Part shown: piece after piece, positions 1,662 to 30,248 of the stretch
Layout of the letters: every line of letters starts with the position of its first letter
How positions within the stretch are numbered: the stretch's first letter is position 1
Source of the DNA: an uncultured Prevotellaceae bacterium
Lineage (GTDB): Bacteria; Bacteroidota; Bacteroidia; Bacteroidales; Bacteroidaceae
Assembly: GCA_902792685.1 (NCBI GenBank)
Contig: CADBAP010000022.1
Coordinates: forward strand, 1-44,909
Reading direction: 5' to 3'
Length of the DNA: 44,909 nt
Notes under the pieces: generated by a model
The model's database searches: none
Told to the model about the DNA's origin: nothing
Seen by the model: the letters and a program-made list of their open reading frames with translations, nothing else
Translations under genes and position numbers: made by a program

Positions 1662-1670
1662 AATACTACA

Positions 1671-7000: not shown

Positions 7001-7054
7001 CCCCTCCTACTCCCCCCCCCCTTAGGGGGAGAGCGAGGTGCAAGGGGCGAGGGG
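7001..7054. repeat. GC-rich palindromic element with a 10-base C tract, copy 2
   Basis: CCCCTCCTACT and a homopolymeric C run (7012-7021) pair with TAGGGGGAG. The adjacent GCAAGGGGCGAGGGG matches in reverse the CCTTGCCCCTCG words at 7361-7393. Confidence 0.55.
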
Positions 7055-11841: not shown

Positions 11842-12597
11842 ATGTTATCAAAGAATCAGGCAAAACTCATCCGTTCGTTGGAACAAAAAAAGAACCGCGA
11901 ACGCGAAAAACTCTTCGTCGCAGAAGGGCCAAAAGTTGTTGGCGACCTGTTGCAGGCCGGCTACAAGGCACGCATCCTGCTCGACGATGAGGAGGATGTG
12001 CGCAAGGTGAGCTTCCTGCAACATCCGCAAGGGGTATTGGCCGTCTTTGAGATTCCTGACACCGCACCGTTTACAATAGGACAAAAGGAATTGGCATCAA
12101 CCGATTACCTCCCCTCACAGGGGAGGACAGGAGGGATCCCTCTTTCGCTTGCCCTCGACGGCATACAGGATCCTGGTAATCTGGGTACCATCATCCGTAT
12201 TGCCGACTGGTTTGGCATTGAAACGATTTACTGCTCAAAGGGAACCGCCGACGTGTATAATCCGAAGGTCATTCAAGCCACGATGGGCAGCATCGCCAGA
12301 GTGAACATCGTCTATACCGATCTGGCTGCCTTGATAGACAGTCTTCCCGAAGGCACACCTGTCTATGGCACCCTTCTCGATGGTGAGAACATCTACGAGC
12401 AACCGCTGAGCGCTCACGGTCTCATCATCATGGGCAATGAGGGCAACGGCATCTCCCCTGAAATCAGGAAAAAGATAACCCATAAACTTCTTATTCCCAA
12501 CTTCAACACAAATCCAAACAGCGCAGATTCACTGAATGTCGCGATTGCAACAGCAATAACATGTAGTGAGTTTAGAAAAATAACACAAAGGGTCTGA
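11842..12597 (+). CDS. TrmH/SpoU-family RNA 2'-O-methyltransferase
   Basis: The 251-aa SPOUT enzyme has an N-terminal substrate-binding domain ([12 protein letters not shown], residues 26-37) and a C-terminal knotted catalytic domain with the three SpoU motifs: [20 protein letters not shown] (106-125), [10 protein letters not shown] and [22 protein letters not shown]. It probably 2'-O-methylates a ribose in rRNA; the exact target cannot be read. Residues about 89-101 ([13 protein letters not shown]) link the domains and are encoded by a GC-rich palindromic repeat (12108-12140) inserted in frame. The gene is divergent from the TamA-like gene and is followed 26 nt later by hisB. Confidence 0.9.
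12108..12140. repeat. GC-rich palindromic element inside the TrmH-type gene, copy 3
   Basis: CCTCCCCT-CAC-AGGGGAGG is a perfect 8-bp palindrome followed by ACAGGAGGGATCCC. It is read in frame and encodes an extra linker. Confidence 0.75.
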
Positions 12598-12623
12598 CCC
12601 TTTGTGTGCAAATCAAGAAGAAG

Positions 12624-13694
12624 ATGATGAAAGTACTATTTATAGACAGAGACGGCACATTGATTGAGGAGCCGCAAGACGAACAGATTGACTCGTTTGA
12701 GAAACTGAAATTCACACGCGGTGTGTTCAAGAACTTGCGGTTCATCCGCGAACAGCTCGACTTCAAATTCGTGATGGTGAGCAACCAGGACGGCTTGGGA
12801 ACAGACTCGTTTCCGGAAGATACCTTCTGGCCTGTTCATAACTTCATCCTGCAGACGCTGGAGGGCGAAGGCATCACTTTCGACGAACAGCTTATCGACC
12901 GCCATTTCCCAGAAGACAACTCTCCGATGCGGAAACCCGGAACTGGTATGCTGACAGCGTATCTCAACAATGAAGCATACGACCTCGCCAACAGCTACGT
13001 CATCGGCGACCGCGATACCGACCGTCAGTTGGCAGAGAACCTAGGATGCAAAGCACTGATTCTCGGTCAGAATGGGATGACGTGGGACAAGATTGCTGAA
13101 ATCCTGTTTGCTGGTGAACGTACGGCTGAAGTGAAACGCACCACAAAGGAGACGGATATCTTCGTCCGTCTGAACCTTGACGGCACAGGCAAAACGGATA
13201 TCGCTACGGGCTTGGGATTCTTCGACCACATGCTGGAACAGATTGGCAAGCACGGTATGATGGACCTGACGATCCACACGAAAGGCGACCTGGAGGTTGA
13301 CGAGCACCATACCATTGAAGATACGGCGCTGGCATTAGGCGAATGTATCCTGCAGGCATTGGGTGACAAGCGTGGCATTGAACGCTACGGATACACGCTG
13401 CCGATGGATGACTGTTTGTGTCAGGTAGCGCTCGACTTCGGCGGTCGTCCCTGGCTGGTATGGGATGCGGAGTTCCACCGCGAAAAGATTGGTGAGATGC
13501 CTACGGAGATGTTCCTGCACTTCTTCAAGAGTCTGAGCGATGCGGCGAAGATGAATCTGAACATCAAGGCGGAAGGCGACAACGAACACCATAAGATAGA
13601 AGGTATCTTCAAGGCGCTGGCGCGCTCCCTGCGTATGGCGGTTAAACGTGATATCTACCACTACGAACTGCCATCGACGAAAGGGATGTTGTAA
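12624..13694 (+). CDS. hisB: Bifunctional histidinol-phosphatase / imidazoleglycerol-phosphate dehydratase HisB
   Basis: The 356-aa fusion catalyses two steps of histidine synthesis. The N-terminal HAD-type histidinol-phosphate phosphatase (about residues 1-165) has DRDGT at its start and a [17 protein letters not shown] motif. The C-terminal IGP dehydratase (about 168-356) shows [16 protein letters not shown], the metal ligands [11 protein letters not shown] and [12 protein letters not shown]. The length equals the E. coli bifunctional enzyme (355 aa). ATG at 12624 is used; the ATG directly after it at 12627 is equally possible, and an upstream GTG at 12606 is unlikely. The gene stands apart from hisGDC, separated by a minus-strand lytic transglycosylase gene, and is probably transcribed with the upstream methyltransferase. 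Confidence 0.95.
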
Positions 13695-13713
13695 CCTCCC
13701 TCAACCCTCAGCA

Positions 13714-13746
13714 CTCCCTCCCCTTGGGAGGGATGGGGTGGGATCT
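13714..13746. repeat. GC-rich palindromic element, copy 4
   Basis: CTCCCTCCCCTTGGGAGGGA with the flank TGGGGTGGGATC fills the gap between the convergent hisB and lytic transglycosylase genes and probably also folds at both transcript ends. Confidence 0.7.
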
Positions 13747-14958
13747 CTATAACTTATACCGATGCTTTTTCGTTGCTGGCTGAGGCGTGCTGGCAGCAGA
13801 ACCGCCACCGATACCGAAAGAACCTGCACCAGCGGCAACACCACGATACTGGTCGTAACGGCGGCGGATGCTGTTGACATAATCCACTGTTTCCGTAGAA
13901 CGCATATAGCCGTATTTCACCACAGGGTCGCTATAATAACGGGCATCCATCAACAACAGCATATAATGAGACACATCGCTCCATCGATAGGCGTTGCCGC
14001 CATGCTTACGCGCCAAAGCCATCGCATCACGAACATGTCCTGAACCACCATTATAACTTGCCAACACGAAGTTCAGGCGCTCCTCACGACTGGGTACATC
14101 CTTGAAATCATTACTGAGCATCGCCATATAACGGGCAGCGGCCGAGATATTTGGCTCAGGCTGAAACAGCTGGTCGCCACTGATACCCAGTCGGGAACCT
14201 GTCGATGGCATAATCTGCATCAGACCGCAGGCTCCTGCCCACGATTTAGCCTTCGGGTCGAAACATGACTCCTGATAGCACTGAGCTGCCATCAGACGCC
14301 AGTCGATACCGACCACACCTGAATATCTCTTGAAATAGCCGTCATAGTTGGAGATGACACCACCGCTGCCATCGAGCACGGGTGCATAGACATGACGGGT
14401 GATACTCTGAGCCGAGAAGATATAGCTCTCGCGCTGCTTTACCTGTGCTATCATTTCAGGCTTATACCAGTGGTTCAGCGTGTCGGCAAGTTCCTGATTG
14501 TCAGCCGTCACCGCCCATTGCACGCCCGCCTTCTCATCACCAGCACCACAAGAGAGCAATCCGTTTGCTTTCTCCAGCGCCTTCGGCAAAGGATAGACGA
14601 TAATGTCGGCATCGCCTCGCTTCAACCGGTTGATCATCTCCGTCGTATCGGCACATAGCTCCACACGCAGCGTCACCCCGATCTCACGGGCAAATTTCTC
14701 GCACAACAGATACTGCAGTCCCATCCCATGACCGTGATAGTCATAATAGGTCTGCGGTCCTGACATCGTCAGCATGATCATCTCACCGTTGGCGATGATG
14801 TCGTCAAGGGTGAAAGTAGTAGTTGTATCTTCGTCGGCATGCTCCTCACCCATCACTGTTCCCCAGGGTGTCATCTTGGGTTCCTCCTTCGTGGAACAAG
14901 CTGCCAACAATGCAGCCAAACAGCAGGCAAAGAGCCATTTCATAGGATAATTATTCAT
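13747..14958 (-). CDS. mltF: MltF-like membrane-bound lytic transglycosylase (lipoprotein)
   Basis: The 403-aa product starts with a lipoprotein signal (ACCLAALLAACS, lipobox LAAC). A periplasmic solute-binding (SBP_bac_3-like) domain covers about residues 45-190 and an SLT/lysozyme-fold catalytic domain about residues 205-370. The catalytic Glu lies in AAQCYQESCF, followed by AGACGLMQIMPST and VLASYNGG, the three classic SLT motifs. The enzyme cleaves the MurNAc-GlcNAc bond to give 1,6-anhydro ends. Two in-frame ATGs are available (14958 and 14943). The C-terminus is Gly/Ser/Ala-rich. A TACTTTTG -7-like box upstream (minus strand, about 14993) overlaps the intergenic region shared with hisG. 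Confidence 0.88.
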   Translation of the reverse strand: MNNYPMKWLFACCLAALLAACSTKEEPKMTPWGTVMGEEHADEDTTTTFTLDDIIANGEMIMLTMSGPQTYYDYHGHGMGLQYLLCEKFAREIGVTLRVELCADTTEMINRLKRGDADIIVYPLPKALEKANGLLSCGAGDEKAGVQWAVTADNQELADTLNHWYKPEMIAQVKQRESYIFSAQSITRHVYAPVLDGSGGVISNYDGYFKRYSGVVGIDWRLMAAQCYQESCFDPKAKSWAGACGLMQIMPSTGSRLGISGDQLFQPEPNISAAARYMAMLSNDFKDVPSREERLNFVLASYNGGSGHVRDAMALARKHGGNAYRWSDVSHYMLLLMDARYYSDPVVKYGYMRSTETVDYVNSIRRRYDQYRGVAAGAGSFGIGGGSAASTPQPATKKHRYKL

Positions 14959-15005
14959 TTCTCATTCACCGATACGGGCTAATTGGGCACAAAAGTACAA
15001 CAAAG

Positions 15006-15037
15006 TTTGCACATTCGCACGAAAAAGCGTAATTTTG
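15006..15037 (+). promoter_or_regulatory. Promoter of hisGDC
   Basis: TTTG (15006-15009), exactly 20 nt and TAATTTTG (15030-15037), giving a leader of about 43 nt. No obvious attenuator with His codons is seen. Confidence 0.8.
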
Positions 15038-15086
15038 CGACAGAATTTAAGTTTTATAAACTCAACAGCATCTATAACACAGCATT

Positions 15087-15938
15087 ATGTTACGAATAGC
15101 AGTACAATCAAAAGGACGTCTCTTCGATGACACGATGAATCTGCTCGCTGAAGCAGACATCAAGGTAAGTGCCAGCAAACGCACCCTTCTGGTGCAGTCA
15201 TCCAACTTCCCGTTGGAGGTTCTCTACTTGCGCGATGACGATATCCCACAGAGTGTAGCCAACGGAGTGGCTGACATAGGTATTGTCGGTGAAAACGAAT
15301 ATGCCGAACGGGGCGAAGACGCACAGATTATCTCTCATCTGGGATTCAGCAAATGCCGTCTGTCACTGGCTATTCCGAAAGAATACAAATACACGGGGCT
15401 GGAATGGTTCAATGGGAAGAAGATTGCCACCTCGTATCCGAATATCTTGCGTAACTTCATGAGCAAGAAGGGCATCAAGTCGGATATTCACGTCATCACC
15501 GGCAGCGTAGAGATTAGTCCGGGCATCGGCCTCGCCGACGGTATCTTCGATATTGTCAGCTCTGGCAGCACGCTCGTGAGCAACAACCTCCGCGAGGTGG
15601 AAGTGGTGATGAAGAGCGAGGCGCTGCTCATCGCCAATTGGAAACTGGATGAGGAAAAGCACCAGATACTCAACGAGATGCTGTTCCGCTTCGAGGCTGT
15701 GCGCTCTGCTCAGGACAAGAAATACGTCATGATGAACGCACCGAAGGACAAGATTCATGAAATCACGGAGGTGCTGCCAGGTATCAAGAGTCCGACGATT
15801 ATCCCACTGGCCGATGAGGGTTGGTGCTCCATCCACACGGTGCTCGATGAGAAACGCTTCTGGGAGATCATCGGCAAACTGAAGGAGCTGGGTGCACAGG
15901 GCATCCTCGTCACTCCGATTGAGAAAATGATATTGTAA
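15087..15938 (+). CDS. hisG: ATP phosphoribosyltransferase (long form) HisG
   Basis: The 283-aa enzyme catalyses the first step of histidine synthesis, joining ATP and PRPP. The length and the C-terminal domain (PLADEGWCSIHTVLDEKRFW, then KELGAQGILVTPIEKMIL) identify the long, HisZ-independent, feedback-regulated form. The start LRIAVQSKGRL and the PRPP/ATP loop GIGLADGIFDIVSSGSTL (about 148-165) are typical. The gene is the first of hisG-hisD-hisC; hisD starts one nucleotide after its stop. Confidence 0.96.
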   Translation: MLRIAVQSKGRLFDDTMNLLAEADIKVSASKRTLLVQSSNFPLEVLYLRDDDIPQSVANGVADIGIVGENEYAERGEDAQIISHLGFSKCRLSLAIPKEYKYTGLEWFNGKKIATSYPNILRNFMSKKGIKSDIHVITGSVEISPGIGLADGIFDIVSSGSTLVSNNLREVEVVMKSEALLIANWKLDEEKHQILNEMLFRFEAVRSAQDKKYVMMNAPKDKIHEITEVLPGIKSPTIIPLADEGWCSIHTVLDEKRFWEIIGKLKELGAQGILVTPIEKMIL

Positions 15939-15939
15939 G

Positions 15940-17244
15940 ATGAAAATATATAAAAATCCAAAGAAAGAATCGTGGAAAGAGATTACGGAACGTCCGCACT
16001 TGGATGTTTCGCAACTCAACAAGACTGTTGCCGACGTGCTGGCTGATGTGAAAGCCAACGGCGATACCGCCGTAAAGCACTATGAACAGCTGTTCGACCA
16101 TGTGGCATTGGACACGCTTGCTGTTTCCGAAGCCGAGATGCAGGAAGCCGAAAGCCTGGTCAGCGACGAACTGCGTCAGGCACTGGAACTGGCTCACGAC
16201 AATATTGCGAAGTTTCATGCCTCGCAGACCTTCGAGAGTCGTCGCATCGAAACCTGCAAAGGTGTGGTGTGTTGGCAGAAGAGCATCGCCATAGAAAAGG
16301 TGGGCTTGTATATCCCAGGTGGAACGGCACCGCTGTTTTCTACCGTACTCATGCTGGCAACACCCGCGAAGATTGCCGGCTGCAAGGATATCGTGCTCTG
16401 CACCCCACCCGACCGACAGGGAAAAGTGAACCCCGCCATCCTGGTGGCTGCCCGCATCGCTGGCGTCAGTCAGATCTTCAAAGCCGGTGGCGTACAGGCT
16501 ATCGGTGCAATGGCCTACGGCACAGAGAGCGTACCGAAGGTGTATAAGATTTTCGGACCTGGAAACCAATATGTAATGGCTGCCAAACAGCAGGTGAGTC
16601 TGCACGATGTGGCCATCGATATGCCGGCTGGCCCCTCAGAGGTGTGTGTGATTGCCGACGACACCAGCCGTGCCGACTTTGTGGCAGCCGATCTGTTGAG
16701 TCAGGCGGAACATGGTATCGACTCACAGGCAATACTTATCTCTATCTCAGAACATTTTATCGAATTGGTTCAAGAGGAGGTTGAAAAACAATTGGCACAG
16801 TTGCCCAGAAAAGAAATCGCGGCCAAAGCACTCGAAAACTCAAAACTCGTATTGGTGAAAGATGCTGATGAGGCGATGGCCTTGAGCAATGCCTACGCAC
16901 CAGAACACTTGATTATCGCCACAGGAAACTACGAGGAACTGTCAGAAAAAGTCATCAATGCCGGCAGCGTCTTCCTGGGCAAATATGCGTGTGAGAGTGC
17001 AGGCGACTACGCCAGCGGCACCAACCACACGCTACCCACTCATGGCTATGCCCTCGCCTACAACGGTGTCAATCTGGACAGCTATAACCGCAAGGTTACC
17101 TTCCAGCATCTCAGCGAAGAGGGTGTCTGCTCTATCGGCAAAGCGGTGGAGCTGATGGCTGAAAACGAACAGCTCGAAGCCCATGCAAATGCCATGAGAT
17201 TAAGAAGACCCACCCCCAACCCCTCCCTGTATGGAGGGGAGTAG
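15940..17244 (+). CDS. hisD: Histidinol dehydrogenase HisD
   Basis: The 434-aa Zn/NAD enzyme oxidises L-histidinol to L-histidine in two steps. Visible signatures are GLYIPGGTAPLFSTVLM, the PGNQYVMAAKQQV stretch, the Zn-site region LSQAEHGIDSQAIL and PAGPSE. It begins 1 nt after hisG, so the two are translationally linked. The last residues (LRRPTPNPSLYGGE) are not typical of HisD and are encoded by a GC-rich palindromic repeat that also supplies the stop codon; the ancestral C-terminus has been replaced. Confidence 0.95.
   Translation: MKIYKNPKKESWKEITERPHLDVSQLNKTVADVLADVKANGDTAVKHYEQLFDHVALDTLAVSEAEMQEAESLVSDELRQALELAHDNIAKFHASQTFESRRIETCKGVVCWQKSIAIEKVGLYIPGGTAPLFSTVLMLATPAKIAGCKDIVLCTPPDRQGKVNPAILVAARIAGVSQIFKAGGVQAIGAMAYGTESVPKVYKIFGPGNQYVMAAKQQVSLHDVAIDMPAGPSEVCVIADDTSRADFVAADLLSQAEHGIDSQAILISISEHFIELVQEEVEKQLAQLPRKEIAAKALENSKLVLVKDADEAMALSNAYAPEHLIIATGNYEELSEKVINAGSVFLGKYACESAGDYASGTNHTLPTHGYALAYNGVNLDSYNRKVTFQHLSEEGVCSIGKAVELMAENEQLEAHANAMRLRRPTPNPSLYGGE
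17206..17244. repeat. GC-rich palindromic element forming the 3' end of hisD, copy 5
   Basis: AGACCCACCCCCAACCCCTC followed by CCTGTATGGAGGGG shows the full family layout: one-sided CCCACCCC flank plus CCCCTCC/GGAGGGG core. It lies entirely in the hisD frame. Confidence 0.75.
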
Positions 17245-17260
17245 ATAGGGAAAGCAAATT

Positions 17261-17303
17261 GTGAAATCGTGAAATCGTGAAATCCGTCAAATCCGTCAAA
17301 TTC
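17261..17303. repeat. Short-period tandem repeat upstream of hisC
   Basis: GTGAAATC units (three copies) pass into CCGTCAAAT units (two copies), ending at the hisC start codon. Confidence 0.75.
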
Positions 17304-18338
17304 ATGAAGTCTTTAGAAACGCTCGTCCGTCCCAACATACTGGCATTAGCGCCATATAGTAGTGCACGCAACGAATACAGCGGTCACACAGCACACGTGT
17401 TCCTTGATGCCAACGAGAACCCGTATAACAAACCGTTCAACCGCTATCCTGACCCGCTGCAGGAAGAGCTGAAAGCTCAGATTGCAAAGGTGAAGGAAAT
17501 CAAAACCGAACAGATCTTCTTGGGCAACGGCTCTGATGAAGCCATCGACTTGGCCTACCGCTGTTTCTGTCGGCCACAAATCGACAATGTGGTCGCCATC
17601 GAACCCACCTACGGCATGTATAAAGTATGTGCCGACATCAACGATGTAGAATACCGTCCTGTGCTGCTCGACGAGAGATACCAGATAGAGGCCGCCCAAT
17701 TGCTGGCTGCCTGCGACGACCATACGAAGATCATATGGATCTGCAGCCCCAACAACCCTACGGGCAACAGCATCAACCGCGAAGCCATCGAGGAGGTGAT
17801 CAACCGTTTCGACGGCATCGTCATCGTCGATGAAGCCTATTCCGACTTCTCCCAGGTGCGTCCCTTCCGCCTCGATCTGGCGAAACACCCCAACCTCATC
17901 GTCCTCAACACCTTCAGCAAGGCGTGGGGCTGTGCTGCCATCCGTCTGGGAATGGCTTTCGCCAGTCCTGAGATTATCGCTATATATAATAAGGTGAAAT
18001 ATCCGTATAACGTCAACCTGCTCACGCAGCAGCAGGCAATGGAGGTCCTGAAGGCACGCTATGATGTCGACGACTGGGTGCGCGTGCTCAAACAGGAGCG
18101 CAGCCGCATGATATCAGCCTTCAACGACCTGCCCATCTGTCTGAAGGTCTATCCCACCGACGCCAACTTCTTCCTGGCACGCATGACAGACGCCCAGGCC
18201 ATCTACGACTACTTGGTCGATTGCGGCATCATCGTGCGCAACCGCACCAGAGTGAGTCTCTGCCAAAACTGTCTGCGCATAACCATTGGTAATAAGTCTG
18301 AAAACAACGAATTGTTGGCTGCATTACGACAATTCTAA
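17304..18338 (+). CDS. hisC: Histidinol-phosphate aminotransferase HisC
   Basis: The 344-aa PLP-dependent class I/II aminotransferase makes histidinol phosphate from imidazole-acetol phosphate and glutamate. It shows LDANENPYN near the N-terminus, SPNNPTGN (about residues 156-163), VDEAYSDF and the PLP-lysine region [16 protein letters not shown] (about 212-227). ATG at 17304 ([11 protein letters not shown]) is the natural start; an upstream in-frame ATG at 17277 would translate part of the tandem repeat. The 59-nt hisD-hisC gap consists almost wholly of that repeat. hisA, F, H and I are not in the window. Confidence 0.94.
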
Positions 18339-18377
18339 CTTTTTTCTACTTTTTTGCAAAAAAAGTTATCAAATTGC

Positions 18378-18407
18378 TTGCTCTTTCCGAAATAAAGTGT
18401 AACTTTG
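18378..18407 (+). promoter_or_regulatory. Promoter of gdhA
   Basis: TTG (18378-18380), a 19-nt spacer and TAACTTTG (18400-18407); the leader of about 60 nt is AT-rich. Confidence 0.7.
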
Positions 18408-18473
18408 CAACCGAAAATTAGGAAAGAGTAATTTTTTCATGGATTTATAACCAACAATAAAAGTAAAAAGATT

Positions 18474-19808: not shown

Positions 19809-19838
19809 GACCACACAAACATACAATACAAACACGTC

Positions 19839-19869
19839 AAAAGGCACTCCTTCACGGGGTGCCTTTTTT
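19839..19869. terminator. Bidirectional terminator between gdhA and hydrolase
   Basis: AAAAGGCACTCC pairs with GGGGTGCCTTTTTT around TTCAC. It also encodes the last codons (KKGTP) and stop of the minus-strand gene. Confidence 0.85.
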
Positions 19870-20796: not shown

Positions 20797-20819
20797 ATTG
20801 ATTAATATTTGTATTTTGA

Positions 20820-21602: not shown

Positions 21603-21630
21603 AAAAGGTTCTTCCGAAGAAGAACCTTTT
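21603..21630 (-). terminator. Terminator downstream of tRNA-Asp and its remnant
   Basis: AAAAGGTTCTTC pairs perfectly with GAAGAACCTTTT (12 bp) with a UUCG loop on the minus strand, followed by T residues. Confidence 0.85.
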
Positions 21631-21631
21631 G

Positions 21632-21678
21632 CGGTGCGTACGGGAGCAGGCATTCTAACCAGGCTGAACTAACGCACC
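21632..21678 (-). pseudogene. tRNA-Asp remnant with internal 28-nt deletion
   Basis: This 47-nt segment is identical to the neighbouring tRNA-Asp except that the T-arm 5' part, variable loop and anticodon arm (28 nt) are missing. Both acceptor-stem halves, GGTGCGT and ACGCACC, and the D-arm are kept. It lies about 95 nt downstream of the intact gene, before the shared terminator. Confidence 0.85.
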
Positions 21679-21772
21679 TTTTTGAATTGAGAATTGCTAT
21701 TCCCTTCGACCAGCAACCGTTGGTTGGGAATTGAAAATTAAGAATTCTCTCCTCTATGGCGGCTTTTCCGAG

Positions 21773-21847
21773 CGGTGCGTACGGGACTCGAACCCGTGAC
21801 CTCCTGCGTGACAGGCAGGCATTCTAACCAGGCTGAACTAACGCACC
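21773..21847 (-). tRNA. tRNA-Asp (anticodon GTC)
   Basis: On the minus strand the 75-nt cloverleaf has acceptor GGTGCGT/ACGCACC, D-arm AGTTCAGCCTGGTTAGAATGC, anticodon stem CCTGC/GCAGG with loop CTGTCAC (GTC anticodon) and T-arm CGGG-TTCGAGT-CCCG. The discriminator is G and CCA is not encoded. Confidence 0.95.
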
Positions 21848-21912
21848 TTTTGGTTAAGCGGTTGCAAAGGTAGGAATATTTTTTGTTTCCACCAAAACAA
21901 AACGCTATTTTT

Positions 21913-22434
21913 TTATAAAAAACATTGTAAAAGACAAGCATCGTGATAACCTTCGGGGGTGAGGAGCCAGTCGTGCAGGATTGTTCTCTCTTTGAAACCA
22001 GCTTCATCGAACAACTGGCAGGAAGCGTGGTTGTCGTTATCGACATAGGCATAGAGCTGATGGAGACGGAGCACATCGCGGGCATAATCCAACAAAGCGC
22101 TGAGGGCTGCAAGGGCATAACCCTGATGACGGTACTGCTGTAGGATCACAATCCCTACTTCAGCTCGCAGATGCTGGGGGGAGAAGTCTTGCAGGTCGAT
22201 CAATCCGACGGTGGTTTCTTCGGCATTGTCGATGACCAGCCGTACTTGCTTGTCGGTATAGATGTCGCCTGTCGTACGTGCCAGATAGTCGTGCAGCACA
22301 TAGCGCGAATAGGGAACATTGGTGTTGCTGACCTGCCACAGCTCACGGTTGTTTTCTATCTGGTAGAGCAGGTCAAGGTCTTCTGGCTCCAGCGCCCGAA
22401 GGGCTACTTTCGGCTGTGAATGCAGGTTGTTCAT
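21913..22434 (-). CDS. GNAT-family N-acetyltransferase
   Basis: The 173-aa protein starts VALRALEPEDLDLLYQIEN and carries the acetyl-CoA-binding pattern EVGIVILQQYRHQGYALAAL (about residues 91-110; Q/R-x-x-G-x-A) and AYVDNDNHASCQLFDEAGF (about 130-148), as in RimJ/SpeG-type enzymes. It transfers an acetyl group to an amine; spermidine or a protein N-terminus are possible substrates, but the sequence does not decide. Its ATG overlaps the stop of the upstream glycosyltransferase gene (ATGA, 22431-22434), so translation is coupled and it is the last gene of the recR run. Confidence 0.88.
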   Translation of the reverse strand: MNNLHSQPKVALRALEPEDLDLLYQIENNRELWQVSNTNVPYSRYVLHDYLARTTGDIYTDKQVRLVIDNAEETTVGLIDLQDFSPQHLRAEVGIVILQQYRHQGYALAALSALLDYARDVLRLHQLYAYVDNDNHASCQLFDEAGFKERTILHDWLLTPEGYHDACLLQCFL

Positions 22435-23636
22435 CGGAATATCTCGTTGGGAGTGATGATGGTTTTCGTATCGGGATGATAGGTGGCGAGCAGCACATCC
22501 TGCTGCGGGTGTTCGCCGAAGATGTTGAGCAGGTGCTCGTAGGAGTAGGCCGATGCGTCATAGACGACATAGGTGGTGCGCTCCTTGTTGAAGGGAGTGG
22601 TCAGGGTATGATGGCCGCCAGGCAGTGTGGTTTCTGTTCCTTCCTTTACGGCGACGCAGGCGAGTCCTTTCTTCTTGGCTAAGGCGACGCAGGCTTCGAG
22701 GTTTTCCAGGTTGCCGATGAAGATATAGTCGGCCTGGGTTTGTTCGTTGGGCAGGAAGAAGCCGAGCGACTTCTTCATCCGGTTGTACTGCATGCTCATC
22801 AGGGCCAGGAAGGCTTTACCGTAGATGGCGAGTTTGATGGGGATGGTGAGGAAGAAGCTCTGCTGACCATAGTGTTTGCGCATGAAGATGAGCATGGCGT
22901 CGTAGAAGACGTGTACGTAGCGGAAGCCTGTGTGTCGCGAACTTTCGCCTTTATAATGGAGGATGCGCAGGGGCAGGTACCAGTTTTGGAAGCCGCCTTT
23001 GAGGATACGACAGCTCAGGTCGATGTCTTCGCCATACATGAAGAAGTCTTCGTCGAGGAGTCCCACTTTGTCGAGGGCTTCGCGGCGCAACAGACAGAAG
23101 GCTCCGCTGACGACTTCGATGGGTGCCTGTTGGTCCCAGGGGAGGCCGCTCATATAATATTTCCCATAGCGCGGATGCTTGGGAAAGAGCTGGCACAAAC
23201 CACTCATCTTATAGAACGACACCATCGGCGTGGGTAATCCGCGTCGTGACTCACGGGCATCGTTGCCGTTAGGGTCCATCATGCGCACGCCCAACGCTCC
23301 TGCATCGGGATGCTGCTCCATAAAGGTGACAGCCTGCTGCAACACCTGTTCGCCCACGATGGTATCGGGATTCAGCAGCAGCACGTATTCGCCTTCGCTC
23401 TGTCGGATGGCCACGTTGTTGGCACGCGAGAAGCCGAGGTTGTGGTTGCTGTCGATGAGGTGTACCTGCGGGAATCGTGCTGCGATGTATTCCACCGTTC
23501 CGTCGTGGGAATGGTTATCGACCACGTACACCTCTGCTTCGAGGTTGCGGATGGCGCGGAAGACACTATCGAGGCACTGCTCCAGATAGTACTTCACATT
23601 GTAGCTGACGATGACAACAGATAGTTTATAATGCAT
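22431..23636 (-). CDS. Family 2 glycosyltransferase
   Basis: The 401-aa GT-A fold enzyme starts HYKLSVVIVSYNVKYYLEQCL and shows VYVVDNHSHDGT, the DxD-type region LLLNPDTIV (about residues 85-93) and EVVSGAFCLLRREAL...DEDFFMYGEDIDLSCRI (about 173-203), as in rhamnosyl- and other GT2 enzymes of polysaccharide synthesis. Hydrophobic stretches near 250-275 may attach it to the membrane. About 110 C-terminal residues after SLGFFLPNEQ form a separate region seen in Bacteroidales relatives. The frame stays open upstream, but that part is antisense-frame overlap of the next gene. The start codon sits in an ATTACGCATTATGCATT repeat. Confidence 0.87.
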   Translation of the reverse strand: MHYKLSVVIVSYNVKYYLEQCLDSVFRAIRNLEAEVYVVDNHSHDGTVEYIAARFPQVHLIDSNHNLGFSRANNVAIRQSEGEYVLLLNPDTIVGEQVLQQAVTFMEQHPDAGALGVRMMDPNGNDARESRRGLPTPMVSFYKMSGLCQLFPKHPRYGKYYMSGLPWDQQAPIEVVSGAFCLLRREALDKVGLLDEDFFMYGEDIDLSCRILKGGFQNWYLPLRILHYKGESSRHTGFRYVHVFYDAMLIFMRKHYGQQSFFLTIPIKLAIYGKAFLALMSMQYNRMKKSLGFFLPNEQTQADYIFIGNLENLEACVALAKKKGLACVAVKEGTETTLPGGHHTLTTPFNKERTTYVVYDASAYSYEHLLNIFGEHPQQDVLLATYHPDTKTIITPNEIFR

Positions 23637-23650
23637 AATGCGTAATGCGG
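23629..23650. repeat. Short-period repeat (GCGTAAT/GCATAAT unit) at GT2 start
   Basis: Three degenerate AATGC(A/G)T units overlap the start codon of the glycosyltransferase gene. The same unit is repeated at 24719-24743. Confidence 0.7.
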
Positions 23651-23683
23651 AGTTCCTTGAGAACTTGTTCGAAAAATGCGTAA

Positions 23684-24115
23684 TTATTTTGGGGTTTCCG
23701 CAAGACACCTGTCCATACTGGGATAGATGAAGAACATGCTGAGGAAGAGGATGACCGCCATATAGAAATAGGAGGTGGTGAAGCTGAAGAAATAGTAGAA
23801 CCAGATGTTGACGACCATCGGTGCAGCGAGCATCATGATGCGCAGCAGGCCGAACAGCAGCAGGCGTTGTGGTGCTTTCTGGGCATCTTCGGTGAGCTGC
23901 TTGTGGATTTTTGGTATCCGGAACATATACAGTGCGAAGGGTATGGAACCCATCGTCAGCAGCACCATCACGGTTCCTGCAACGAAGTTGACGCTGGGGT
24001 CTTGCAGGTCGCCTGGCATCAGGCATTCTGTTTCGTACAGCACGATAATGGCAACTGCCAGAATGACAGGTGCAAAGAATGCAATCAGTAATTTCCTTTG
24101 TGTTTCTTTCATCAT
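23684..24115 (-). CDS. Four-TM integral membrane protein, unknown function
   Basis: The 143-aa protein has four predicted membrane segments (about residues 9-27, 44-65, 86-106 and 113-132), with a cytosolic loop [20 protein letters not shown] between the second and third. The start ATGATG overlaps the recR stop codon (24112-24115), so it is translated from the recR transcript. No family is recognised; it looks like a small Bacteroidales-specific inner-membrane protein. Confidence 0.78.
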
Positions 24116-24714
24116 ATCTCAGTTCTGTTTAAGATGGCACGTCCGAGGGTGAGTTCGTCGGTATATTCCAGTTCGTCGCCAACGGAGATGCCGCGGGCAA
24201 TCACACTGATTTTCACACCCAACGGCTGCAGCTTGCGCTGGATATAGAAATTGGTGGTGTCGCCCTCCATCGTACTCGCCAACGCCAGGATGACCTCTTC
24301 TACCCCACCCTGACTGACGCGCTCAACCAACGAGTCGATCTCGATGTCAGAAGGTCCGATACCGTCCATCGGTGAGATGATGCCGCCCAGCACATGATAG
24401 AGTCCATGAAACTGCTGGGTGTTCTCGACGGCCATCACGTCCTGGATGTTTTCGACCACACAGATCACCGATTTGTCGCGGCGCGGATCGGAACAGATGG
24501 GACAGACCTCGGTGTCGCTGATGTTGTGGCAGACGCTGCAATGCCTGATATCCTTCCGCACGCGGGCTATCGCTTCAGCAAACTCCTCCACCTCGTCGCA
24601 CGGCTGGCGCAACAGATGGAGAACCAACCTGAGGGCAGTCTTACGACCTACCCCAGGCAGTTTGGAGAATTCCGTAACGGCTTTCTCCAGGAGTTGTGAA
24701 GGATATGATTGCAT
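24112..24714 (-). CDS. recR: Recombination mediator RecR
   Basis: The 200-aa protein acts in the RecF/RecOR pathway, loading RecA on SSB-coated gaps. It has the helix-hairpin-helix start ([20 protein letters not shown], residues 17-36), a four-Cys zinc finger ([16 protein letters not shown], about 58-73) and a Toprim domain with [14 protein letters not shown] and [13 protein letters not shown]. Length and layout are standard. It is the first gene of an overlapping run recR, membrane protein, GT2, GNAT. A 26-nt gap made of TGCGTAA repeats separates it from the upstream barrel gene. Confidence 0.95.
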
Positions 24715-24718
24715 TTCT

Positions 24719-24743
24719 AATGCGTAATGCGTAATGCGTAATT
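24719..24743. repeat. Short-period tandem repeat (TGCGTAA unit)
   Basis: Three near-perfect copies of the 7-bp unit TGCGTAA fill the gap between recR and the outer-membrane barrel gene. Confidence 0.8.
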
Positions 24744-25239
24744 AATCGTCGAAGAGGTAGATGCCTACACCTACACGCAGACCGATGGTGGAATAGTTTT
24801 TGTGACTGGTGAACGACTGGTCGTAGTAGATAGCCGGTTCGATGGTCACAGAGCGGTTGAGGAAGAAAGCATAGCCTACCTCCAATCCTGGCATCACGTC
24901 GTTGTGGTTGTGGTCGCAATGAACGAGTTTGGCCGCAGCACCAAAGAACAGACCGCATGATTCCAAATAATAACGTCCACCGACGCCGAGGGTGTAACGG
25001 TCGGCGACAGCATCATTGCTGCTATGCTCGAACGAAGCCTCACCCAGCAACATCAGGTTGTCGGCGATAAAATAACCGCCCTGAGCCTGCAAGCCTAACG
25101 TAAACTTGTCGTTGCCGTTGTAATGAAGGTTCAAACCTGTAAGGGAAGCTCCAATGTATCCCTTACCTTTCTGGAACTGTGCACTTGCGCTCAATGTCAT
25201 GATGCAAGCTGCAACCAAAAGAAATAATTTCTTTGTCAT
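24742..25239 (-). CDS. Small outer-membrane beta-barrel protein
   Basis: The 165-aa product has a signal peptide (MTKKLFLLVAACIMTLSASA, cleavage before QFQKG) and about eight alternating amphipathic strands of the OmpW/OmpX/OMP_b-brl type, for example GYIGASLTGLNLHY, FTLGLQAQGGYFIADNL and the final aromatic-ending strand GLRVGVGIYLFDD. A small porin-like or adhesion barrel is likely; no ligand can be named. It lies between cstA and recR on the same strand. Confidence 0.8.
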   Translation of the reverse strand: MTKKLFLLVAACIMTLSASAQFQKGKGYIGASLTGLNLHYNGNDKFTLGLQAQGGYFIADNLMLLGEASFEHSSNDAVADRYTLGVGGRYYLESCGLFFGAAAKLVHCDHNHNDVMPGLEVGYAFFLNRSVTIEPAIYYDQSFTSHKNYSTIGLRVGVGIYLFDD

Positions 25240-25277
25240 AATTGTTTTATTTTGAATGAATAATATTCTAGGGAGTC

Positions 25278-26777
25278 TTAAGCCTCCCCATCAGGGGGGA
25301 GGTTGGAGGGGGCTTTTCTCATCTTCCACACCCCAAACCAGATGATGGCAATAGCGAGGGCGATACCACCCATCGCATAGCTGAGCGTCTGCGGCAGGTT
25401 GAATGCCTGCGGGCTGACGAAGAGGAAGGTGACGCATACCGTTGTCATAAACAGGGCGGGAATGAGCGTAATCCAGTAGTTCTTCTTGTTTTGCACGAGA
25501 TAGACGGTCAGCGTCCACAATGTGAATACAGACAGCGTCTGATTTGACCAGCCGAACCAATTCCAGATTCTGTTGAAGCCTTCAATATCGGACATCTGCC
25601 ACACCAGCAGGGCGATGGCAAGGGCGAACATCGGGATACACACCGACAGACGGCGACGGATGGAATGTTGCTCGAAATGCAGGAAGTCGGCAATGATCAG
25701 ACGGGCACTGCGGAAAGCAGTGTCACCACTGGTAATCGGCGCTGCCACTACACCCAGCATCGCGAGGATGCCGCCAGCAACGCCCAACCAGTCTTTGCAC
25801 ATGATATTCACAACGGAAGGTGCATCGCTCAACGCATCCTTGCCGCCAGCCACCAGCTCGTAACCTGGGGTGGGTTCCTGATAGAAGAAATACATCGCTA
25901 CCGATGCCCAGATCAAAGCCACGATACCTTCGGTAATCATCGCACCATAGAAGATAGGACGACCCTGTTTCTCATGCTTCACACAACGCGCCATCAACGG
26001 ACTCTGGGTTGCATGGAAACCACTGATGGCTCCACAGGCGATGGTGATGAACAAGCCAGGGAATATCAGGCTCTTGGCACCAAAGTGCTCAGCTCCCATA
26101 TTGCCGAACTCTTGCCACAGCTCTGGTATCTGCGGCCATTTGACAAACATCACTACCATCAATGCTAACGCCATAAAAATCAGCGAGATAGCAAAAAGAG
26201 GATAAATCTTTCCTATAATCTTATCGATAGGCAACAGTGTGGCAATGATGTAGTAGATGAAGATGACGGCTATCCAGAAGAAATAGCTACCAAACTGTTC
26301 GACGAAGAAGGCAGGTTCCCAGATGCCGCCCAGGATTTTGGCAGGACTGAACACAAACACGACGCCTACCATCATCAGCAGCAGGACGGAGAAAACCAGC
26401 ATCACCTGCTTGGTGACTTTTCCCAAGTACGTACCCACCATATCGGGCAGGTTGGCTCCTCCGTGACGGATGGAGAGCATACCACTCAGGTAGTCGTGAA
26501 CAGCACCAGCAAAGATGCAGCCGAAGACAATCCACAGATAGGCTACAGGTCCGAACTTCGCACCCATGATGGCTCCGAAGATAGGACCCGTTCCTGCGAT
26601 ATTCAGAAACTGGATCATGAAAACCTTCCAACTGGGCATGACGATATAATCTACCCCATCGGCCTTCGCAACGGCAGGAGTAGGACGGTCGTCAGGACCA
26701 AAAATCTTCTCAACAATCTTTCCGTAAACCACATATCCCAACACCAGCAGGACAAGTGCCACCACAAATGAAATCAT
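25278..26777 (-). CDS. cstA: Carbon starvation protein CstA (peptide/pyruvate transporter family)
   Basis: The 499-aa inner-membrane protein has about 13 hydrophobic segments and the CstA signatures FLNIAGTGPIFGAIMGAKFGP (about residues 57-77), AGAVHDYLSGMLSIRHGG (91-108) and SGFHATQSPL in the middle. The family imports peptides or pyruvate under nutrient limitation. It is shorter than E. coli CstA (about 700 aa), as usual for Bacteroidota. The final residues (KAPSNLPPDGEA) are encoded by a GC-rich palindromic element that supplies the stop. A TACCTTTG -7 box at 26810-26817 is seen, with a poor -33. Confidence 0.92.
   Translation of the reverse strand: MISFVVALVLLVLGYVVYGKIVEKIFGPDDRPTPAVAKADGVDYIVMPSWKVFMIQFLNIAGTGPIFGAIMGAKFGPVAYLWIVFGCIFAGAVHDYLSGMLSIRHGGANLPDMVGTYLGKVTKQVMLVFSVLLLMMVGVVFVFSPAKILGGIWEPAFFVEQFGSYFFWIAVIFIYYIIATLLPIDKIIGKIYPLFAISLIFMALALMVVMFVKWPQIPELWQEFGNMGAEHFGAKSLIFPGLFITIACGAISGFHATQSPLMARCVKHEKQGRPIFYGAMITEGIVALIWASVAMYFFYQEPTPGYELVAGGKDALSDAPSVVNIMCKDWLGVAGGILAMLGVVAAPITSGDTAFRSARLIIADFLHFEQHSIRRRLSVCIPMFALAIALLVWQMSDIEGFNRIWNWFGWSNQTLSVFTLWTLTVYLVQNKKNYWITLIPALFMTTVCVTFLFVSPQAFNLPQTLSYAMGGIALAIAIIWFGVWKMRKAPSNLPPDGEA
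25281..25317. repeat. GC-rich palindromic element forming the 3' end of cstA, copy 6
   Basis: GCCTCCCCATCAGGGGGGAGG followed by TTGGAGGGGGC encodes the last residues of CstA and may also act as a terminator. Confidence 0.7.
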
Positions 26778-26809
26778 CTTTTATTATCTATTTTTTCTAT
26801 TTTATCGGA

Positions 26810-26817
26810 CAAAGGTA
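26810..26817 (-). promoter_or_regulatory. -7 box of cstA
   Basis: TACCTTTG on the minus strand, about 33 nt before the cstA start; the -33 position reads TTTC. Confidence 0.45.
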
Positions 26818-26849
26818 CGATTTTTATTCGAAATACTGAAAATATTTAT

Positions 26850-26857
26850 TATCTTTG
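26850..26857 (+). promoter_or_regulatory. -7 box of GHL10-type gene
   Basis: TATCTTTG lies 18 nt before the ATG at 26876; the -33 region is an AT-rich tract without a clear TTTG. Confidence 0.5.
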
Positions 26858-26875
26858 TGCAAAATTTACGAAATC

Positions 26876-28507
26876 ATGAGACGAAGACTTCTATTCACGA
26901 TAGCAATCTTATGTGCGCTAACCGCTTTTGCACAAGTGCCGAAACACGAACTGCGTGCCGTCTGGCTCACCACCGTCAAGAATCTCGACTGGCCGAAAAC
27001 ACTTGTGAAGAGTCCTGCCGACGTGCAGAAACAGAAGGCGGAGTTGTGCCGTATCCTCGACAAACTGCAGCAGGCAAACGTCAATACGGTGCTGTTGCAG
27101 ACGCGTGTGAGGGCAGCCGTCATCTATCCATCCGACATTGAACCGTGGGATGTCTGCATGACGGGCACACACGGAAGGAATCCTGGCTACGATGCGTTGC
27201 AGTTTGCCATCGACGAGTGTCATGCTCGCGGAATGGAGTGTCACGCGTGGCTTTGTACGCTGCCCGTAGGCAAATGGGACGCGCCAGCTTGTAAGGCCAT
27301 CCGCAAACGGCTGCCCCACCTTATATATAAAATAGGTGACGAAGGATTTATGCGGCCGGAGTCGCCAGAGACAGCCGACTATCTCGCCAGCATCGCCCGC
27401 GAAGTGGTTACGCGGTATGATGTCGATGGCATCCACCTCGACTATATCCGTTATCCGGAGCAACAGGCCATCCGTATCAGCGGTAACGAGGCTCGTTCCA
27501 ATATCACCCGTATCGTACGGGCTATCCATGATGCGGTGAAAAGCGTGAAGCCATACGTGAAACTCAGCTGTTCACCTATCGGCAAGCATGCCGACCTGCG
27601 CATTCAGTCGAGTCGCGGATGGAATGCACGCGACAAAGTGTATCAGGACGCCCAGGAATGGATGCGCACAGGACTGATGGATCAGCTTTATCCGATGATG
27701 TATTTCCGAGGCAACAACTTCTATCCTTTCGCCGTTGACTGGAAAGAGAAAGAATATGGAGGCGCTGTGGCCGCAGGACTGGGCATCTACTGTCTGGATC
27801 GCAGCGAAGGAAACTGGCCGCTGGAGGAGATACAGCGCCAGCTGAACACCACCCGACAGCTGGGATTAGGTCATGCGTACTTCCGCAGTCAGTTTTTTAC
27901 TGACAATACAAAAGGTGTTTATAACCTGATAGCCAACGACATAGACCGCTACCCTGCCCTCGTTCCGCCGATGCGGAATAAAAACACCCATCACTCATCA
28001 CCCAACACCCATCACCCAACACCCATCACCCTTTCCCTCTCCCCCCACTACATCGTCCTTTCCTGGGATGGTGATGCCCCGCTTTATAATGTCTATGCCT
28101 CACGCGAGTTGCCTGTCAATACGGATGATGCCCGCAACCTCATCGCTATGAGACTGACCCAAAAACAGTTGGTGTTCGAAAATACACCGCTCACCAGACA
28201 GATGAACTACGTGGTGACGGCGATGGACCGTTTCGGCAACGAGAGCGTACCCCAGCAGTCGGCTGCTGTCAGCACGCAAAACGCCTTCCTGCCCAACGAC
28301 GGAAAGACGCTCGTTGTTGACACCCAAGAACTCTCCAACAAAGACTATTTCCTGATACAGACCCTACAGGGAACCACCGTCGCCAGCCGCAGAGCCTATC
28401 GCAGCCACATCGATATCGCCGACCTTCCCGATGGCACCTATCAGTTGCGCAGCGTCAACAAAAAAGGCGTTGCTCATCGCATCGCCTTCTTTATCATTAA
28501 AAGATAA
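26876..28507 (+). CDS. GHL10/YngK-type glycoside hydrolase, exported
   Basis: The 543-aa product has a signal peptide (MRRRLLFTIAILCALTAFA, then QVPKHELRAVWL) and a TIM-barrel of the glycosyl-hydrolase-like 10 (DUF187/YngK) family. Typical stretches are ELRAVWLTTVKNLDWP (about residues 24-39), QQANVNTVLLQTRVRA, YDVDGIHLDYIRYPE (about 181-195) and the SPIGKHAD region. A fibronectin-like C-terminal half follows, with a link encoded by a short tandem repeat (THHSSPNTHHPTPIT, about residues 371-386). Family members act on peptidoglycan-like or other glycans; the substrate here is not decided. ATG at 26876 gives the signal peptide. Confidence 0.85.
   Translation: MRRRLLFTIAILCALTAFAQVPKHELRAVWLTTVKNLDWPKTLVKSPADVQKQKAELCRILDKLQQANVNTVLLQTRVRAAVIYPSDIEPWDVCMTGTHGRNPGYDALQFAIDECHARGMECHAWLCTLPVGKWDAPACKAIRKRLPHLIYKIGDEGFMRPESPETADYLASIAREVVTRYDVDGIHLDYIRYPEQQAIRISGNEARSNITRIVRAIHDAVKSVKPYVKLSCSPIGKHADLRIQSSRGWNARDKVYQDAQEWMRTGLMDQLYPMMYFRGNNFYPFAVDWKEKEYGGAVAAGLGIYCLDRSEGNWPLEEIQRQLNTTRQLGLGHAYFRSQFFTDNTKGVYNLIANDIDRYPALVPPMRNKNTHHSSPNTHHPTPITLSLSPHYIVLSWDGDAPLYNVYASRELPVNTDDARNLIAMRLTQKQLVFENTPLTRQMNYVVTAMDRFGNESVPQQSAAVSTQNAFLPNDGKTLVVDTQELSNKDYFLIQTLQGTTVASRRAYRSHIDIADLPDGTYQLRSVNKKGVAHRIAFFIIKR
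27984..28031. repeat. Short-period repeat inside the GHL10-type gene
   Basis: CACCCATCA/CACCCAACA units (about five) are read in frame as a Thr/His/Pro-rich linker between the barrel and the C-terminal domains. Confidence 0.75.
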
Positions 28508-28536
28508 TTATTCTTCCAGCCTTTATTTGCCGTAGG

Positions 28537-28574
28537 CTTCCCCCCTCCCCTTGGGAGGGAAAAGGGGTGAGGCT
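28537..28574. repeat. GC-rich palindromic element, copy 7
   Basis: CCCTCCCCTTGGGAGGGAA followed by AAGGGGTGAGGC lies between the convergent GHL10-type gene and guaA and probably serves as their common hairpin. Confidence 0.7.
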
Positions 28575-30248
28575 TTATTCCCACTCAATCGTCGAAGGTG
28601 GTTTGGAGGAGATGTCATAACAAACGCGGTTGACACCTTTCACCTTATTGATAATCTCATTCGACACTTTTGCCAGGAAGTCGTACGGCAGATGTGCCCA
28701 GTCGGCAGTCATCGCATCGGTAGAGGTGACAGCACGCAGGGCAACGGGGTTCTCATAGGTGCGCTCGTCACCCATCACGCCCACGCTGCGAACGGTACTC
28801 AGCAATACGGCACCTGCCTGCCAGATCTGGTCGTACAGAGAGACTTCTATCTCGCCGTCTTGCATCGCTGCAGGAACGCCGGCAGCCAACACACGACGCG
28901 CTTCTTCACCGCTGAGCTTCACCTTGTATTCGCGCAAACCGCGGATATAGATATCGTCGGCATCCTGTAAGACGCGCACTTTCTCTGGTGTGATGTCACC
29001 CAGAATACGGACAGCCAGACCCGGCCCTGGGAACGGGTGACGGGTGATCAGGTGTTCAGGCATTCCCATCTGGCGACCTACACGACGCACCTCGTCTTTG
29101 AACAGCCACTTCAGCGGTTCACACAGCTGGAGGTTCATCTCCTTGGGCAAGCCGCCCACATTATGATGACTCTTGATAACCTTACCCGTGATATTCAGTG
29201 ACTCGATGCGGTCAGGATAGATGGTGCCTTGAGCCAACCAACGAACAGCCCCTTCCTGTCCTCCACCATTAGAATTGATGATGGCCTTAGCCTGCTCATT
29301 GAACACCTCGATGAAGTCGCGACCGATAATCTTGCGCTTCTGTTCCGGATCGGTGACGCCGGCAAGGTCGGAGAAGAACTTCTCGCTGGCATCCACACCT
29401 ATCACGTTCAAGCCCAGCACCTTATAGTCTTCCATCACCTGCGTAAACTCATTCTTGCGCAACATACCGTGATCCACGAAGATACAGGTCAGCCGATCGC
29501 CGATAGCTTTGTTCAACAACACAGCAGCAACGCTGGAGTCAACACCTCCCGACAAACCCAAGATCACACGGTCGCTGCCTATCTGCTCGCGGAGTTCGGC
29601 AACAGTCGTATCGACAAACGACGCTGCACTCCAGTCTTGCTTGGAACCACAGATGTCAACCACGAAATTCTTCAGCAGCAGGGAACCCTGAATGGTGTGG
29701 AACACCTCCGGATGGAACTGGACGGCAAAAAGAGAAGACCCACCCCCATCCCCTCCCTGTGAGGGAGGGGTGTTAAATGCCTGCTTCCAATATGCGGCGT
29801 ATTTCACATCCTTGGTAGAAGCGATACACTCAAAGCCGTCGGGAATGGCGGTGATGGTGTCGCCGTGACTCATCCACACCTGTGAGTGCTGGTCGAAACC
29901 CTTGAACAAAGGATTCTGCGTGTCAACGGTCTCCAGATGGGCGCGACCATACTCGCGGGTATTGGTCTTCTCCACCTTTCCGCCGTTGGCATAGGAGATA
30001 TATTGCGAACCGTAGCAGATACCCAATACCGGCACCTTGCCTACAAACTGGCTGAGGTCAACCTTGAAAGCCTCTGGGTCGTGAACGGAAAACGGCGAGC
30101 CGCTCAGGATGACACCGATAACGGAGTCATCGTCCACAGGGAATTTGTTGTAAGGAAGAATCTCACAAAATGTGTCCAGTTCACGTACACGACGGCCAAT
30201 CAGCTGCGTTGTCTGTGAACCGAAATCCAGAATAATAATCTTTTGCAT
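28575..30248 (-). CDS. guaA: GMP synthase (glutamine-hydrolysing) GuaA with repeat-encoded insertion
   Basis: The 557-aa enzyme converts XMP to GMP. The class I glutamine amidotransferase domain has the nucleophile in GICYGSQ (Cys78) and the His/Glu pair in QFHPEVFH (His179, Glu181). The ATP-pyrophosphatase domain has the PP-loop LSGGVDSS (about residue 225), and the C-terminal dimer domain has [14 protein letters not shown] and ends KPPSTIEWE. Typical GuaA proteins are 507-525 aa. About 15-20 of the extra residues (154-173, with [13 protein letters not shown]) are encoded by a palindromic repeat inserted directly before the catalytic His strand. guaA starts 6 nt after the MurU-like stop, so they form one operon. 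Confidence 0.95.
29735..29773. repeat. GC-rich palindromic element inside guaA, copy 8
   Basis: AGACCCACCCCCATCCCCTC followed by CCTGTGAGGGAGGGG is the complete element, nearly identical to the one ending hisD, here in frame on the opposite strand of guaA. Confidence 0.8.

Follow-up and report, generated by a model that had tools for sequence, protein, structure and literature searches.

A GC-rich repeat of intrastrand-triplex layout found between and within core genes of rumen-type Prevotella

The 44,909-nucleotide stretch of DNA analyzed here, called the window throughout, is contig 22 (CADBAP010000022.1, positions 1 to 44,909, forward strand) of the genome of an uncultured Prevotellaceae bacterium (GCA_902792685.1; 2.3 Mb in 166 contigs, 78.7% complete). 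It carries a family of short GC-rich palindromic repeats, copies of which lie in frame in core genes such as guaA. The family is real and far above chance. It probably represents the Prevotella version of the GC-rich intrastrand-triplex motifs (TM/PIT), with a unit of about 41 bp that would have been added repeatedly and pasted widely by some machinery.

A strict form of the palindrome (CCTCCC-N0..20-GGGAGG) was searched for in the window, where it occurs 6 times against 0.05 expected from dinucleotide shuffles. There are 192 matches in the whole genome, a few of them nested, as compared with 2 for the reversed pattern, so that the shuffled and reversed controls rule out chance base composition as the source of the repeats. 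A profile made from 27 copies was then applied to 420 kb of the genome, window included, and all counts for the organism's own genome given below refer to this portion unless stated otherwise. It gave 58 matches of at least 14 bits versus 5 in the reversed sequence, and 84 of at least 10 bits versus 12. The 58 matches merge into 57 copies; scaling up from 53 per 420 kb leads to an extrapolated number of about 290 copies in the genome. Mis-assembly was rejected as a general cause, because relatives assembled in one or two contigs (G016, G117, G132, G146) also carry 61-127 matches.

The copies in the window and the genes that host them are as follows (strand + or -; bits are profile scores):

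1669..1700, -: degenerate weak copy, 5.4 bits, left out of the counts
7001..7034, +: marginal intergenic copy, 9.7 bits on + (10.5 bits on - at 7012-7031)
12104..12134, -: copy in the SpoU/TrmH-type methylase gene, residues 88-98, hairpin CCTCCCCTCACAGGGGAGG, 10.0 bits; 17-residue insertion relative to the relative G045
13714..13751, -: copy adjoining the stop codon of the open reading frame (ORF) 13747-14958, 20.1 bits
17199..17242, +: copy encoding the C-terminal residues of hisD together with its stop, 24.5 bits
25279..25321, -: copy encoding the C-terminal residues of cstA together with its stop, 26.6 bits (CstA by Pfam)
28540..28580, -: copy adjoining the guaA stop codon, 17.5 bits
29730..29773, +: copy in guaA, residues ~159-173, in the loop before VQFHPE (His179), 30.8 bits
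36482..36524, -: copy adjoining the stop codon of a sigma-70-type factor gene, 29.6 bits (sigma factor by Pfam)
11842..12597, +: SpoU/TrmH-type methylase gene hosting a copy (PF00588)
15940..17244, +: hisD, host of a C-terminal copy (PDB match)
25278..26777, -: cstA, host of a C-terminal copy (PF02554)
28575..30248, -: guaA, host of the internal copy (PDB match)

The original prediction, made from the letters of the window, had listed nine copies. Eight of these score at least 9.7 bits (six at 17.5-30.8 and two marginal ones, 7001 and 12108, at about 10), whereas the ninth, at 1671, is weak (5.4). Two of the eight are internal to genes, two provide C-termini with their stops, three adjoin stop codons (13747, 28575 and 36522) and one marginal copy is intergenic. 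The prediction had correctly placed in-frame copies in the TrmH-type gene and in guaA, and had attributed the ends of two further proteins to the repeat, which our analysis bears out. The hisD copy encodes PTPNPSLYGGE and the stop, and the PDB homologue of HisD, 6an0, aligns only up to residue 425 of 434; a search for HisD in relatives gave a single partial match at a contig end. The tail of cstA was assigned to its copy by inspection, and a search for CstA in relatives gave no match. The hisD and guaA copies had been called almost identical; they agree at 86% over 37 nt, and other parts of the genome contain closer pairs.

Near-identical copies at unrelated sites have (G)AAGACCC...GGGGAGTA in common and diverge beyond it, and these sharp ends define a unit of about 41 bp. 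For a second subfamily (AGCCTCACCCC...GGAGAGGGGAGTA), many of the cross-genome matches among those listed span the same 41 bases, and a few extend to 60-90. On the G-rich strand, the C-stem comes first and is followed by a loop, the G-stem, 2-3 nt, a second G-tract that mirrors the stem, and TCT. All 57 copies can be parsed into C-stem, G-stem and mirror G third tract with short loops. The layout of a one-sided flank next to a palindrome, as originally described, is thus present, but the flank is the third tract of the TM/PIT intrastrand-triplex layout. A subset of copies has a 3' AGTA(G) foot. No target-site duplication was seen around 31 delimited copies (flank match 1.90 versus 2.02 for re-dealt flanks, standard deviation (sd) 0.21). 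At L033:2287 and L021:4311, in two unrelated long genes (helicase-like, and Mfd-type (TRCF) by Pfam, respectively), a copy and a second motif (GAACAGAGTTCG) together make up 50 identical bases, which look like a composite or a larger recent unit.

The second G-rich tract could lie on the stem as a third strand. To score this arrangement, G.G-C, A.A-T and T.A-T were allowed as triads, the best register was taken for each copy, and third tracts re-dealt among copies with the same freedom served as controls. The fraction of allowed triads in the 57 copies is 0.951, compared with 0.880 (sd 0.012) after re-dealing, and was reached by none of 2000 re-deals. We take this as support, not proof, that stem and third tract covary in triplex fashion, because relatedness among the copies is uncorrected. 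The G-tracts would also fit a G-quadruplex: 41 of the 57 such motifs in the 420 kb overlap copies, and one is present in 38 of 81 copies. When five window stretches were folded as single-stranded DNA, they gave -7.3 to -10.7 kcal/mol with z-scores from -0.57 to -3.89.

Many copies lie within genes. Of the 81 copies with at least 10 bits (a level at which the reversed control gives 12), 56 are within ORFs of at least 100 aa, some of which are spurious. Of the 57 copies with at least 14 bits, 24 lie in frames of genes recognized by Pfam, PDB or homology to G045. They are found in genes for primase-like (2), Mfd-type (2), NRPS-like (2), GltB (2), ProA (2) and ArgC (3, one N-terminal) proteins, and singly in a sodium symporter, AroC, RecQ, DapF, DsbD, TrpF, GuaA, an aminotransferase, HisD and CstA (the last three C-terminal) and an MBOAT protein (N-terminal, start uncertain). 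The G-rich strand is the sense strand in 14 of 19 listed in-gene copies; this list consists of the 19 internal sites described below without the weakest Mfd copy and with AroC, for which the insertion is based on Pfam length alone (362 residues for 327 positions). In copies with at least 14 bits, an average of 4.5 of 6 frames are open, versus 3.7 for random 42-mers.

If the segments were ancient parts of these proteins, homologues should carry them too. Instead, 19 internal sites are empty or shortened in a homologue, the segment being wholly or partly missing: GuaA, TrmH-type, PyrG, RecQ, IlvH, TrpF, primase-like, Mfd (3), GltB (4), DapF (2), AsnB (2) and ProA. Ten of them come from comparison with G045, a one-contig relative of which 1.2 of 3.3 Mb were compared. 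This portion contains no profile match of at least 10 bits, and the whole G045 genome has two strict-palindrome matches. A homologous G045 ORF was available for 19 of our copies, among which there were 10 internal insertions and 1 C-terminal addition. The ten internal copies (primase-like, three in Mfd, PyrG, RecQ, IlvH, TrpF, TrmH-type and GuaA) face 0-8 residues in G045 versus 11-16 in our organism. Comparison with PDB homologues revealed gaps of 7-15 residues at the four GltB sites, 9 and 5 residues absent at the two DapF sites, 22 residues together absent from 1ct9 at the two AsnB sites, and 14 residues absent at one of the two ProA copies; the GuaA insert is absent from both G045 and PDB 5tw7. 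Among 119 orthologue-like pairs, a few of which are probably antisense ORFs, internal insertions of at least 8 residues were counted 21 times in our ORFs versus 9 times in G045, and 7 of the 21 overlap copies.

The guaA site could be followed across the genus. The set of 80 GuaA relatives kept by name consists mostly of Prevotella or Prevotellaceae metagenome-assembled genomes, many of them from ruminants, and includes Segatella copri and Xylanibacter brevis. The loop before VQFHPE was readable in 129 of 130 genus GuaA loci, corresponding to 106 distinct DNA sequences. It has at most 8 residues in 46 of these, which is apparently the base state. Thirteen of the 106, our own included, contain a profile match of at least 10 bits (a count for which these short loops have no reversed control): eight have single inserts of 15-20 residues and five have inverted pairs of 41-42 residues (L068, L069, L070, L236, L255). 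Seven further loops score 6.5-9.7 bits. Others hold in-frame tandem repeats of about 7 bases (AACTCTC, AAAGTTC, AACATTC; by inspection; L084, L237, L074, L073, L261) in this same loop that elsewhere in the genus hosts triplex-type repeats. In the TrmH-type gene, too, the inserts at the same site differ between relatives (8 of 30 loci aligned), including repeats of about 7 bases in L200 and L202 as judged from peptides alone. The GuaA loop thus seems permissive to several kinds of repeat, and copies found there therefore need not be independent insertions.

The strict palindrome is present in 144 of 150 genomes of the genus, with 0 to 359 matches per genome; the reversed control usually gives fewer than 10, yet reaches 35 in G019. 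Among 198 genomes sampled across the phylum, 10 matched a stricter pattern of flank plus palindrome, our own counted. A TMECO-like pattern with an 8-nt stem matched 73 of the 150 genus genomes, without a single reversed-control match in all 150.

The repeat resembles several known systems. For the TM motif, Holder et al. 2015 (PMC4666352) report 3610 copies of TMECO across 262 proteobacterial genomes, those of E. coli K-12 lying between genes in every case; the TM loci form inverted pairs, have no mobility genes and are unstable in E. coli, and PIT motifs are reported to be without promoter or terminator activity. The Prevotella repeat shares with TM, TMECO and PIT the order of C-stem, loop, G-stem, 2-3 nt and mirror G-tract (PMC4666352), the inverted pairs, the lack of a mobility gene tied to them and, in many Prevotella, similar letters (CCCTCTCC-loop-GGAGAGGG...GGGGTGAGG). 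It differs from TMECO in its stems, which are mostly 7-9 nt with the A placed differently, in its unit ends (AGACCC/AGCC...GAGTA), which were defined in the present analysis, in its number of up to hundreds of matches per genome, and in its position, since 24 of 57 copies are in genes, many in frame in core genes, in contrast to the wholly intergenic copies of E. coli K-12. As blastn of one Prevotella unit gave no match in E. coli at E<=10, the link to E. coli is one of printed pattern, not of a shared match.

In behavior, the closest parallel is the Rickettsia palindromic element (RPE), to which the original prediction had likened the repeat: both are palindromic, lie in frame in unrelated genes, are tolerated by the protein and are absent from homologues. 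The likeness does not extend to length, as the RPE has about 150 bp (44 are in genes of R. conorii; PMC10969869) and our unit about 41 bp, nor to phylum; the two are set apart here by description, not by sequence. Intragenic REPs are known as well, RPE-4 and RPE-6 of Rickettsia among them (PMC3733652), and the structures that flank RAYT subclass 2.6 of Bacteroidetes are atypical (PMC6006769). The GTAG/CGTC REPs with their RAYTs share short hairpins, paired copies and intragenic cases with the Prevotella repeat (PMC3733652, PMC6006769), which differs in that no 5' GTAG or CGTC tag was seen (its 5' end is AGACCC/AGCC) and no cognate RAYT was found. Enterobacterial RU repeats are likewise small, mobile and read through in genes, but they are longer (103-168 bp) and resemble miniature inverted-repeat transposable elements (MITEs; PMC2759123), from which the Prevotella copies differ by the lack of a visible target-site duplication. 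No report of in-gene triplex repeats in Prevotella or Bacteroidetes was found among the best matches in the open-licence PMC literature.

In the reading that we prefer, copies of the triplex-type unit would be added repeatedly, singly or as inverted pairs, without detectable target duplication. We infer that the repeat is mobile, and that some machinery recognizes or generates the folded single strand, for instance at replication forks or in the course of repair, and inserts copies in many places. Within genes, survival would be limited to insertions that keep the frame and fall in tolerant loops or at C-termini, and this would be eased by the short, somewhat stop-poor unit, rich in Gly, Pro and Ser. 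Since the fold appears conserved inside coding sequence, the data suggest that the DNA structure rather than the peptide is being kept. A bolder version, in which a mobile repeat class is recognized by an undescribed machinery as folded three-stranded DNA and not as a plain hairpin, has added short flexible stretches to many core enzymes of some Prevotella and has its fold kept in coding sequence by selection, through three-way compensating changes, seems rather unlikely to us.

Several results weigh against the preferred reading. With a fixed parse of 80 of 81 copies, the covariation test was not significant (allowed triads 0.721 versus 0.707; 34 coincidences versus a mean of 29 and a maximum of 43), and the freer parse that did reach significance, made at a higher score threshold, is uncorrected for the shared descent of copies. 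One of the five folded stretches, that with z = -0.57, is no better than its own shuffles. The remaining 8 of the 19 copies compared with G045 fall in variable linkers or in truncated or doubtful ORFs, some PDB homologues lack only 5-9 residues (DapF, one GltB site), and the three ArgC copies and the other ProA copy lie in replaced or variable stretches and were excluded from the 19 internal sites. Nine of these 19 have copies of 10-13.3 bits, a level where the reversed control also matches; for the same reason, the 19 sites and the 24 in-gene copies are not the same set. Finally, the literal TMECO pattern with a 9-nt stem and up to two substitutions had no match in the 420 kb of our genome or in 528 kb of GuaA loci.

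A dedicated enzyme might be dispensable. Triplex or hairpin motifs could arise and spread through replication slippage, template switching and gene conversion at structured DNA, a possibility that we hold tentatively and do not favor. It would agree with the instability of E. coli TM loci, for which PMC4666352 reports no mobility genes, with the 7-base tandem repeats in the GuaA and TrmH-type loops and with the fact that no linked enzyme was found. However, near-identical units with sharp ends at unrelated sites look like unit dispersal, and slippage or conversion fits poorly with hundreds of copies in some species and few or none in others.

The repeats could also be REP elements mobilized in trans by a Y1 (RAYT/TnpA-REP) transposase, in a REPtron-like manner. 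The hairpins, the inverted pairs, the absence of a visible target duplication and the AGTA(G) foot are all in keeping with this idea. A match to PF01797 (Y1_Tnp) was found in 88 of the 150 genus genomes, and copy numbers are higher in these (median 23.5 versus 15, Mann-Whitney p=0.008; Fisher p=0.06 for presence in TM-rich versus TM-poor genomes). One RAYT (L122 = L313, G038) sits between an inverted pair of copies. Of the 46 copy-rich genomes (50 or more matches), 13 are without a PF01797 match, and four of these (G101, G115, G132, G146) do show a weak RAYT-like match with a RAYT protein query (E 3e-5 to 6e-4). The other nine (G003, G008, G019, G026, G030, G047, G056, G139, G148) gave no Y1-type match in either search, and G003 and G026 are 99% complete. 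With one RAYT class as query, 57 of the 150 genomes were matched, mostly weakly and both copy-rich and copy-poor.

Most of the loci themselves count against Y1 mobilization. Many Y1_Tnp genes of the genus adjoin other palindromes. The strict palindrome occurs in none of the 30 best Y1_Tnp loci. Among 20 further chosen loci, L124, L130 and L133 matched a looser pattern, the match in L130 being unlike the repeat. A profile copy (at least 8 bits) was present in 5 of 51 loci and missing from 46. When the L122 locus was used in a DNA search, the matches listed were to repeat units at other places and to one RAYT relative, in G002, and no repeated transposon was among them. Our own genome has one sub-cut-off Y1 match, with no copy in its 3.2-kb locus. 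A transposase acting in trans had been proposed as worth looking for, and none could be tied to the repeats in the window, our genome or the 150 genus genomes. We thus regard mobilization by a Y1 enzyme as possible, though less likely than not.

The Y1 searches led to some further observations. The sub-cut-off protein (L016:787-2007, contig C11, 406 aa) itself contains copies of a different repeat in frame (peptides GTVAG, ASVPAASPAG), and other genus genomes encode similar proteins of about 320-450 aa whose linkers are variable and filled with repeats. L133:638-3355 (G110) and L334 (G041) are very long frames of 905 and 1202 aa with an in-frame Y1-transposase-like part, in which L133 ends; the parts joined to it are presumably a cobalamin-type enzyme and a DNA-methylase-like protein.

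The position of window copies at gene ends, three adjoining stop codons and two supplying them, and the folding of the five stretches could indicate transcription terminators or RNA hairpins, but a terminator needs no third tract, many copies lie deep inside genes, and PIT motifs are reported to lack promoter and terminator activity (PMC4666352). This explanation is improbable, and we rejected it as the main role of the repeats. That the segments are old conserved GC-rich protein loops without any insertion, as the ArgC copies, one ProA copy and four copies in primase-like linkers, all facing similar residue numbers in the homologue, might suggest, is hardly credible given the 19 internal sites and the short GuaA loop in 46 of 106 sequences.

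Two features of the window lie apart from the repeat. A perfect 37-bp direct repeat (21646-21682 and 21815-21851, 169 bp apart) overlaps with its second copy a tRNA (21773-21847, minus strand) and resembles an attachment site or a tRNA duplicated in part; Rfam detected two tRNAs in the window and nothing else. Four imperfect 36-nt direct repeats at 334-592 lie within an ORF and are reminiscent of repeat-rich surface proteins.

What emerges is a repeat of triplex layout that behaves like the Rickettsia element, the surprise being its scale in core genes and the hint of a fold kept in coding sequence. A type of repeat known mainly between genes would thus also have reshaped proteins in rumen-type Prevotella. 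Gut and rumen Prevotella, some of which are cultivable, offer an accessible group in which empty sites can be compared and in which core enzymes provide a natural set of insertions. Annotators and structure modelers should be aware that stretches like LGEGRGEA or TPNPSPKGEG in proteins of Prevotella can come from the repeat.

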